Part shown: piece by piece, positions 49,064 to 51,542 of the stretch
Layout of the letters: every line of letters begins with the position of its first letter
How positions within the stretch are numbered: the stretch's first letter is position 1
Origin: Chloroflexota bacterium
GTDB lineage: Bacteria; Chloroflexota; Anaerolineae; Aggregatilineales; J027
Length of the DNA stretch: 64,000 bases
Assembly: GCA_024434115.1 (NCBI GenBank)
Contig: QMIT01000010.1
Coordinates: forward strand, 124,001-188,000
Direction: 5' to 3'
Program-made: the position numbers and the translations under genes
The notes under the pieces: model-generated
Databases searched by the model: none
Told to the model about the DNA's origin: nothing
The model's input: only the letters and a program-made list of their open reading frames with translations

Positions 49064-49294
49064 CTACCTCAGCCAGTCATACCCATCTTCGATCAAAATG
49101 TCGCTATTCTCGTCTATGTTCTCTTCGGTTGAGTGCTGCCCATCTGAAACAATCCAGATCGGCGCTAGGGTTATCCACGATCTCTTCAGACGCGCATCCG
49201 TTTCGACGCTGTCTGTTTTCTGGTCAGAACTGCGTTGTGAACCGTGTTTACGTGCCATGGTGGGTTTACGATAAGGTTCCCGGTTGGTACTCAT
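49064..49294 (-). CDS. Possible small acidic-tailed protein, accessory cluster
   Basis: 76 residues: a basic first third (RKPTMARKHGSQR) and an acidic end (STEENIDENSDILIEDGYDW). AAGGAT lies about 10 bases before the ATG. The start lies inside the preceding small gene, overlapping it by 29 bases. No family is recognised; the gene is called on its ribosome-binding site and position, with modest confidence. Confidence 0.4.
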   Translation of the reverse strand: MSTNREPYRKPTMARKHGSQRSSDQKTDSVETDARLKRSWITLAPIWIVSDGQHSTEENIDENSDILIEDGYDWLR

Positions 49295-49454
49295 GATTTG
49301 GGTTATCCTTTTGGCTCAAGCTGTCGAGCCATACTCGATTTATTGACTGAAAACAAATTCTCTGCATTTGGGCCGTCAGGTTCATCTGAACCCCCTTGAA
49401 CGAGTGAACTTGAAGCATCGAAGTCCGATAGTGGGCATAGATTTTGTTGAACAT
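49266..49454 (-). CDS. Small protein of unknown function, accessory cluster
   Basis: 62 residues. A textbook AAGGAG stands 6 bases before the ATG, which is the main evidence. The sequence is polar and Gln/Asn-rich (MNLTAQMQRICFQSINRVW) with no recognised domain. It continues the series of small minus-strand genes behind the HTH gene. Confidence 0.55.
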   Translation of the reverse strand: MFNKIYAHYRTSMLQVHSFKGVQMNLTAQMQRICFQSINRVWLDSLSQKDNPNHEYQPGTLS

Positions 49455-49528
49455 GGTTTCTCCTTTGTACTCTTACTGATACGATATTTACGGTTTTAGG
49501 TTTTGATATTGTCCTCGGTGCTTATTCC

Positions 49529-49813
49529 CTACCGTGAACCGTAAAGGCTCAATTGGGCGGGATGGGGCACTTCAAGGGTAGTATCCGATGTTAGAGGGGC
49601 TTCCACCCCCATCTCTTTGAGCGTTTCTTGGGCGGTGTAGATAATATCTTCCAACCAACCCACCACATCTTCAGCGCTCAAATTGCTCACGGCGGCGAGT
49701 GTGTCCGTTGTCGTCGCGTCGTGCAGTCGGTCAAGTGTTGCTAATACTGTTTCGAGATGACACTCCGTCAAGCGATTTTGCAGAACCGTCAGGGATAAAA
49801 TTTTTGTGTTCAT
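49529..49813 (-). CDS. Small helical protein of unknown function, accessory cluster
   Basis: 94 residues from the ATG at 49813 with AGGAAA upstream; an ATG eight codons earlier has no site. It looks all-helical and acidic (LQNRLTECHLETVLATLDRL, VVGWLEDIIYTAQETLKEMG), as in small adaptor or antitoxin-like proteins, but no family is recognised. A large hairpin stands between it and the gene before it. Confidence 0.6.
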   Translation of the reverse strand: MNTKILSLTVLQNRLTECHLETVLATLDRLHDATTTDTLAAVSNLSAEDVVGWLEDIIYTAQETLKEMGVEAPLTSDTTLEVPHPAQLSLYGSR

Positions 49814-49854
49814 AGTCGTTTTTTCCTGCTCTATCAAGGTCGCACCGCAAAATA

Positions 49855-49913
49855 AATACCGGGGTGTAGTGCCTTTGACAATTTCACTGTCTCTGGCCCC
49901 ACACCCCGGTATT
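49855..49913. repeat. Perfect 13-base inverted repeat with 33-base loop
   Basis: AATACCGGGGTGT (49855-49867) is the exact reverse complement of ACACCCCGGTATT (49901-49913). The loop has a further AGTG/CACT pair. It lies between two small genes of the accessory cluster and is not followed by a good T-tract on either strand. Confidence 0.85.
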
Positions 49914-49940
49914 GGGTTGCTTGGCGAAGTTTCGGGTTGA

Positions 49941-50378
49941 CTAGGTTAAGATAGGTATCTTCCTAGGCCGCCTCGAAGTGTCTTCCACAGGACTCAGAGT
50001 CCACAGTGAATCAGAACCGCTGTATTCCGTTGTTAAAATTGCAACTGCTTTATTGCCGTTTTGTAGCCTATTTTGTAGGCCGACACCCATCGGGTTTTCA
50101 CCCTCGGCATCCAACAAACTGGGCAATATCTTCATCCAAGGCGCATCGGACACGACAATCGTTCCGTTCAGGTTCCAGCTAGGATCGCTGGCGAGTGAGG
50201 CCTTGCCATTGAGTGCGGCATTCTGACCGCCAAATACGGCGGCTGGCAGCACACGCACTCCACCCAGTCTGAACTGCCGTCCGCTGCGGCTAATGGTCGC
50301 AGCACGCAGCATATCGCTGGTGATAGCGGCCTCCCGCAGTGTGGCACTCATGACTCGGTCACTAAAATGGCAATACAT
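49941..50378 (-). CDS. Unknown protein, accessory cluster
   Basis: 145 residues with AGGAG 6 bases before the ATG. The sequence mixes beta-like segments (RQFRLGGVRVLPAAVFGG, GTIVVSDAPWMKILPSLL) with a basic end (RRPRKIP). I do not recognise it. It follows the HTH gene by 68 bases on the same strand and is likely under its control. Confidence 0.65.
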   Translation of the reverse strand: MYCHFSDRVMSATLREAAITSDMLRAATISRSGRQFRLGGVRVLPAAVFGGQNAALNGKASLASDPSWNLNGTIVVSDAPWMKILPSLLDAEGENPMGVGLQNRLQNGNKAVAILTTEYSGSDSLWTLSPVEDTSRRPRKIPILT

Positions 50379-50446
50379 CTTCTACTCCTGAATGGGGTTC
50401 GCCTTTGTTTACCCCAATTTATGAATTGGACGATAGAGTTTACAGG

Positions 50447-50716
50447 TTAGATCGCTTTTTTCGACTGCTCCTGAGAGTTTACAACAGTTACTACGGTCTG
50501 GTCAAGCATTTGCAGGATACTGCTACCTTTGATAAAGACCCGGCGCATTCCCGGCGGCTGCGACACTTGGAGGTATCCCTGATCAATTAACTTCTTGAGC
50601 GTGCTTAGACTGACCCCAAGCGCGTCGGCAGCCTCTTTACGAGAATAAACTGCGTTGGGCTGGATGCCAGACTTGTTTTTATTGCTTTGCGTTGGTTTGA
50701 TAATCGCTAACGACAC
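50447..50716 (-). CDS. Excisionase/MerR-like HTH regulator
   Basis: 89 residues from a GTG at 50716 with GGAGG 7 bases upstream; an ATG at 50776 lies upstream of the promoter and is rejected. The helix-turn-helix is YSRKEAADALGVSLSTLKKL followed by a recognition-wing PPGMRRVFI, the pattern of excisionase-family (HTH_17) DNA-binding domains. It probably regulates the small genes downstream and, from the inverted repeats over its promoter, itself. Confidence 0.8.
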   Translation of the reverse strand: MSLAIIKPTQSNKNKSGIQPNAVYSRKEAADALGVSLSTLKKLIDQGYLQVSQPPGMRRVFIKGSSILQMLDQTVVTVVNSQEQSKKAI

Positions 50717-50736
50717 TCTTATACCTCCGACTATCT

Positions 50737-50769
50737 TGTCATTATATGACACTTGACACCACTCGTCAA
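50737..50769 (-). promoter_or_regulatory. Near-consensus promoter with two inverted-repeat operators
   Basis: Minus strand: TTGACG (50769-50764), 17 bases, perfect TATAAT (50746-50741). An inverted repeat TGTCA-N5-TGACA (50737-50751) covers the -10 and another, TTGAC-N7-GTCAA (50753-50769), covers the -35. Binding at either would block polymerase. Confidence 0.8.
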
Positions 50770-50897
50770 CAGGCATTATCCTCTGATAATGGATGATAAA
50801 GTTGATTTTAACCTAAAGAAAGATTTTTAGCCATTACAATAGTTCATAGTAGCTCAAAATTGTCGTCAAATTGTATAGTGCAGGTTAAAATAATCTA

Positions 50898-50938
50898 ATT
50901 GTACAAAGTGGTACAATCGCTTGAAATCGGGTTATAAT
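50898..50938 (+). promoter_or_regulatory. HNH-gene promoter with palindrome
   Basis: TATAAT at 50933-50938, 59 bases before the HNH start. The palindrome ATTGTAC-N6-GTACAAT (50898-50917) overlaps the place of the -35, which itself is weak; this suggests control by a dimeric regulator. Confidence 0.6.
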
Positions 50939-50996: not shown

Positions 50997-51542
50997 TTGC
51001 AAGGGCGGGTATTGCTTCTGAATGGAAGCACATGGGAACCTCTCTCGGTGATCAGCATACCGCGAGCCATCAACCTGCTGATTTCCGGTAAAGCGGTAGT
51101 AGTCGAGGAAACGGGTCGTTTTCTCAAAACTGTCCGCAGTCAATTCCAAATCCCATCGGTTATCGCTTTGCGGACTTACATCAATGTGCCACGCCGACAA
51201 GCTCAGTGGAGCCGTAAGGGGGTTTTAGTGCGTGACAATTACACCTGCATTTACTGTGGCATCGTACCCGGTGAGATTTTGCAGGGCAAGATTCTGTCCA
51301 AGAGTGATATGACGGTGGATCACATCCTACCCAAATCGCGGGGTGGTAAAGATGTATGGACGAACACGGCTTGTGCGTGTTATGCCTGCAATCATCGTAA
51401 AGGCGATCGGTTACCCGGTGAAGCAGGTTTAAAGCTGATGTGGGAACCGCGCCGACCACGTACCAACTATCTGGTGATTGAAGTAGGCAATGGGCCAGAT
51501 GCGTGGAAAAAATATATCGAATTTGGCGATACCAGTTCATAA
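50997..51542 (+). CDS. HNH endonuclease-family protein
   Basis: 181 residues from a TTG. The HNH core has the zinc pairs Cys84/Cys87 (CIYC) and Cys128/Cys131 (CYAC), with DHILPKSRGG (Asp108-His109) and NHRKGDR. This form is the solitary chromosomal HNH common in many bacteria, whose role is not settled; the first 60 residues (LLLNGSTWEPLSVISIPRAI) belong to that family. It could be a host nuclease or an anti-invader gene. It stands next to, and divergent from, the small accessory cluster. Confidence 0.88.
   Translation: MQGRVLLLNGSTWEPLSVISIPRAINLLISGKAVVVEETGRFLKTVRSQFQIPSVIALRTYINVPRRQAQWSRKGVLVRDNYTCIYCGIVPGEILQGKILSKSDMTVDHILPKSRGGKDVWTNTACACYACNHRKGDRLPGEAGLKLMWEPRRPRTNYLVIEVGNGPDAWKKYIEFGDTSS

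Follow-up and report, generated by a model that had tools for sequence, protein, structure and literature searches.

In Bacillus subtilis, the bmrB-bmrCD genes are controlled by ribosome-mediated transcription attenuation, in which efficient translation of the leader is proposed to lead to the terminator and slowed translation to the antiterminator (PMC4191407). The leader-peptide attenuators of the trp and ilv type share the principle of a leader ORF that overlaps the antiterminator strand, with mutually exclusive hairpins, and respond through a run of regulatory codons. The papers on leader-peptide attenuation that we found in the open-access literature concern Bacillus, actinobacteria and proteobacteria, and no description from Chloroflexota was found there. 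Two further systems bear on the locus described here. BldC is a small MerR-like protein whose binding sites are direct repeats, occupied head to tail (PMC5859096), and expression of rtcB in Escherichia coli protects against ribosome-targeting drugs (PMC12606134, PMC5175333).

In this study, we analysed a window of 64,000 nucleotides from a Chloroflexota bacterium, the minus strand of which carries, from 50769 to 49064, a promoter, an HTH_17 gene and four ORFs of 145, 94, 62 and 76 amino acids. We propose, with a probability of about 0.8 and from sequence comparison, that the HTH autoregulator gene, a leader ORF, a terminator hairpin and the 94-residue gene P3 (followed here by P2 and P1) form an operon governed by a translation-coupled transcription attenuator. 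The closest model is bmrB-bmrCD, which likewise has a small upstream ORF devoid of amino-acid-specific codons. The bmrBCD terminator, however, sits inside bmrB and its target is a drug exporter (PMC4191407), whereas here the leader comes after a putative autoregulator gene and is free in sequence over the whole order, the hairpin stands about 30 nt beyond its stop codon, and the putative targets are P3, rtcB or HNH neighbours. The overlap of leader ORF and antiterminator strand and the mutually exclusive hairpins recall the trp/ilv attenuators, from which the locus differs in lacking a regulatory codon run and in its leader length of 46–171 codons. As in BldC, the HTH protein is small, has no effector domain and has a candidate direct-repeat operator well upstream of the −35 box; the putative repeats are TGRNCY at 10 bp instead of AATTXXXX(C), and Pfam assigns the protein to HTH_17. 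The E. coli Rtc RNA-repair system ties rtcB to ribosome and antibiotic stress, but uses the activator RtcR, whereas here the proposed attenuator precedes rtcB, and in some families only.

Promoter, regulator gene and candidate operator

The genome that contains the window measures 5.28 Mb, and its near relatives are Anaerolineae/Chloroflexi metagenome assemblies. The HTH gene was found in 63 of 101 genomes and P3 in 47 of 101, and with few exceptions the two adjoin. Three further families of the class (f27, f46 and f50) likewise have P3, and one locus named Caldilineales (L146) has the HTH gene, leader, hairpin, P3 and HNH gene in one row.

The near-consensus promoter that an earlier note on this DNA had placed ahead of the HTH gene was confirmed: TTGACG-17-TATAAT at 50741–50769 (minus strand) matches the consensus at 11 of 12 positions and is kept in the congeners, and a TTGAC-type promoter stands at the equivalent position across most of the order. 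Promoter-like sites in the region number 10, against 4.1 in shuffles. Both inverted repeats described in that note are present on the minus strand. The dyad TTGAC-N7-GTCAA (50753–50769) covers the −35 box and is kept in all five congeners, whereas TGTCAT-ATA-ATGACA (50737–50751), over the −10 box, is broken in two of four (G002 and G004); neither dyad is shared by other families.

The HTH gene itself (50447–50716, minus strand; 89 amino acids) begins with a GTG behind GGAGG, an ATG at 50776 lying upstream of the promoter and therefore not being its start. Its product, noted earlier as excisionase-like, is of the excisionase/MerR/BldC type, with a Pfam HTH_17 match at E 3e-7, and is under strong constraint (dN/dS 0–0.11 among congeners and 0–0.12 in other close pairs). 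A candidate operator of two head-to-tail 10-bp repeats, TGAGCTACTA TGAACTATTG (50837–50856, minus strand), precedes the −35 box at a distance of about 87 bp. Pairs of TGRNCY spaced 10 bp apart precede 25 of the 38 HTH genes, against 0.1 in shuffles, while other spacings (6–15 bp) occur at 0–1 loci. Their distance to the −35 box is 47, 57, 67 or 87 (87 in the window), equal to 7 modulo 10 in 17 of 22 loci, and they are absent from the g8 loci, in which the HTH coding region is lost. The HTH protein probably binds these direct repeats, and it is probably from them that it sets transcription of the operon. The self-regulation suspected earlier is plausible, but would act through conserved direct repeats rather than the inverted ones.

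A second HTH_17 paralogue is present in the same genome (L002; G000:C9:203853), as is a second copy in many relatives; no 10-bp repeats were found upstream of L002. The intergenic region between the HTH and HNH genes also holds a dyad, TTGTAC-N6-GTACAA (50895–50925), within a stretch fully conserved in the five congeners, which is a possible operator of the HNH gene. The HNH protein (50997–51542) is a stand-alone protein of 181 amino acids, about 70% identical across the order, which PADLOC matches to PtuB and Cas9 in their HNH domain only; its gene lies close to that of the HTH protein at 18 loci, in changing orientation.

Leader ORF, terminator hairpin and candidate antiterminator element

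In every relative, the 160–730 nt interval between the HTH stop codon and P3 has a terminator-like hairpin at its end. The longest ORF in this interval stops 20–50 nt ahead of the terminator in 33 of 35 loci (the window included, its four congeners left out), against 5.6 expected from dinucleotide shuffles, and five of six separate-leader loci beyond these agree with the layout. In the window this ORF is P4 (49941–50378, minus strand; 145 amino acids), which has the ribosome-binding site CAGGAG at 8 nt and a stop codon 29 nt before the hairpin. Leaders are 46–171 codons long, with a median of 77; families are unlike in leader sequence and the peptide is not conserved. The leader dN/dS is 0.54–1.45 in congeners and 0.39–1.09 in other close pairs; all four indels among the congeners are multiples of 3, and leader dS is 0.02–0.06 among the four closest congeners, compared with 0.10–0.24 in the HTH gene. 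The preserved frame argues that the leader is translated, as do the leaders of family f4, which share the N-terminal pattern M-x-P-G-S...S-E-L-(D/N), encoded with synonymous codon changes. No enriched amino acid or regulatory codon run was found in the leaders. The 145-residue ORF is probably a translated leader rather than the gene of a protein with an independent role. The earlier description of four small unknown genes therefore holds in part, one of the four being a leader: normal protein-level constraint is lacking in the 145-residue ORF, present in those of 94 and 76 residues and moderate in that of 62. Many loci also carry a TTTAACAAC motif about 110–130 nt ahead of the hairpin, in a reading frame that differs between families.

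The terminator hairpin, TACCGGGGTGTGGGGCC-N21-GGCACTACACCCCGGTA followed by TTTATTTT (49857–49911, minus strand), begins about 29–30 nt after the leader stop and is unchanged over about 80 alignment columns in all five species of the genus. Across the order, 15 of 16 stem pairs change on both sides, with 113 double-change stem cells compared with 44 in shuffles. The window hairpin is the best match of the covariance model R1 in its genome (47.7 bits). Similar stems terminate unrelated genes in the class, so that stem sequence alone is not diagnostic; R1 by itself was rejected as a locus marker, as its extra class-wide matches are terminators of unrelated genes. Ahead of rtcB or HNH genes, the loci L063, L064, L069, L085 and L146 have a further conserved element that resembles a hairpin, around GTGTTGGCTC, which may be another attenuator.

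Upstream of the hairpin lies an element, such as GGTCTCACG, CAATCTCA or CAGTCTCAC, that is complementary to the 5′ arm of the terminator of its own locus. When terminator arms were exchanged among 42 loci, the summed pairing of elements with their own arms was −664 kcal/mol, compared with −532 ± 15 for permuted arms (0 of 2000 permutations as strong). None of 5000 permutations reached the observed value after row and column centring, nor did any of 5000 within families; locus counts are inflated by phylogenetic relatedness, and within-family permutation removes part of this effect. At each of the 42 loci the element falls within the leader ORF, 8–23 codons ahead of the stop, and at 35 of them it is in one reading frame. 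A competing antiterminator that overlaps the leader ORF is thus found in the family as a whole. The best candidate in the genus of the window is CGGCCTAGGAAGATACCT (49953–49970, minus strand), within the final codons of the leader. It pairs at −12.1 kcal/mol, and 14% of foreign arms pair with it equally well. In this genus the arm also has a competing fold, with 9 pairs to the nucleotides immediately upstream of the hairpin. By the arm-swap test the antiterminator pairing is strong in other families but weakly supported in the window genus, and a search against shuffled upstream regions gave mixed results, the z values for the window genus being close to 0 or having the wrong sign. The switch is accordingly attributed to the family on its comparative record, and is presumed to extend to the window's own copy.

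Genes downstream of the hairpin and variants in relatives

P3, the putatively attenuated gene (49529–49813, minus strand; 94 amino acids), starts 43 nt after the hairpin. The gap is 29–53 nt in most loci, and f4 and a few other loci have gaps of up to 113 nt; with a start so close behind the hairpin, P3 expression should depend on read-through. P3 is constrained as a protein (dN/dS 0.03–0.18), and no relatives were found in Pfam or PDB. It is predicted to be all-helical with a mean pLDDT of 64 and a pTM of 0.48, a model too weak for a fold search. L078 keeps an intact leader ORF and hairpin, but its P3 seems to be cut short by a premature stop codon. The two remaining ORFs were found in the genus only. 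P2 (49266–49454, minus strand; 62 amino acids) overlaps the start of P1 by 29 nt, and P1 (49064–49294, minus strand; 76 amino acids) has a dN/dS of 0.06–0.26. P2 might be a leader of P1, since its indels are in-frame and its dN/dS (0–0.41) reaches 0.41.

Several relatives depart from this layout. In f46 and f50 it is the HTH ORF, here elongated, that stops 22–35 nt ahead of a terminator; one such locus (L174) has a 12-bp complement to the arm that was equalled by 0 of 100 shuffles, and the same search showed nothing at another (L179). Three g8 genomes (G012, G048 and G055) keep the promoter, leader, element and hairpin, with only the last ~18 HTH codons remaining and no P3 detected. The switch thus appears to outlast both its regulator and its usual target. 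The RNA-repair gene rtcB lies downstream in G012 and the related G025, as it does behind the locus in f5 and in several genomes of f4; the window genome has its own rtcB on another contig.

Proposed mechanism and alternatives

Under the attenuator model, the HTH gene, leader ORF, terminator hairpin and P3 would be transcribed as one operon, which in this genus also takes in P2 and P1. A ribosome close behind RNA polymerase would cover the element, so that the terminator forms and P3 is off; were leader translation slow or failing, the element would pair with the 5′ arm, the terminator would be prevented and P3 would be made. As no amino acid is enriched in the leader, the signal is more likely to be general ribosome progress than the supply of one amino acid. 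The association with rtcB would fit translation stress as the signal. More tentatively, and with rather less than even confidence, the leader may be read as a general sensor of ribosome progress, a long ORF indifferent in sequence with its length, frame and end maintained, at which a lagging ribosome would permit read-through to RNA-repair or other genes. A release-dependent scheme of opposite sign is also possible.

Other explanations account for parts of these observations. Were the hairpin the ordinary terminator of the HTH transcript, the intervening ORF would be a fast-evolving real protein and P3 would have a promoter of its own. The good ribosome-binding site of the 145-residue ORF and the similar stems that end unrelated genes agree with this, but a free terminator would neither coevolve with an upstream coding element nor fix its frame, and the closeness of P3 to the hairpin at most loci, together with a leader dN/dS near 1, also makes it improbable. 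We consider it unlikely, too, that the region is a riboswitch or a protein-bound RNA leader in which the ORF is incidental. An RNA-level function would suit the unusually conserved synonymous sites of the leader, an 87-nt stretch unchanged in the congeners and the recurrent TTTAACAAC motif; an incidental ORF, however, would not hold its stop position and frame, no Rfam family fits beyond chance-level matches, and leaders varying from 46 to 171 codons were seen to have no common fold. A classical amino-acid attenuator of the trp/his/ilv type would supply the leader ORF, terminator and antiterminator that are all present, yet the leaders have neither an enriched residue nor a codon run, the peptide is not conserved and the target genes are not biosynthetic, so that we regard this as very improbable.

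The earlier note had likened the locus to a small integrated element, a defence module or a toxin-antitoxin system, and had proposed examining its presence or absence in relatives. An excisionase-like HTH protein, small ORFs and a nearby HNH gene invite such a reading, but all five genes occupy one shared position in the congeners G001–G004, beside HNH, MBL-fold and protein-kinase genes that are 93–100% identical there. The distribution is wide and vertical, and no integrase or repeats were seen within the interval. Searches of PADLOC and PHROG matched none of the four small proteins to a defence or phage family, and gave only weak generic matches for the HTH protein. The island reading fails: four congeners have the genes at one fixed position, which is the kind of finding that the note had itself named as refuting it, and linkage of the HTH gene with P3 extends throughout the order. 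We consider a mobile, defence or toxin-antitoxin module extremely unlikely. By its gene order and phylogenetic spread, the locus is an ancient, vertically inherited operon of Anaerolineae.

The coevolution of element and arm traces the proposed attenuator through at least three orders, and indicates that a leader can hold its frame while its peptide drifts; it also serves as a warning that annotated 'hypothetical proteins' may be leaders. The locus offers a handle on the P3 protein family and on how rtcB is controlled in a group with few cultured members. If the leader does sense general ribosome progress, it would represent an ancient, class-wide stress switch of Anaerolineae, whose sensor outlives its regulator, as in g8, and its target, as where P3 gives way to rtcB.
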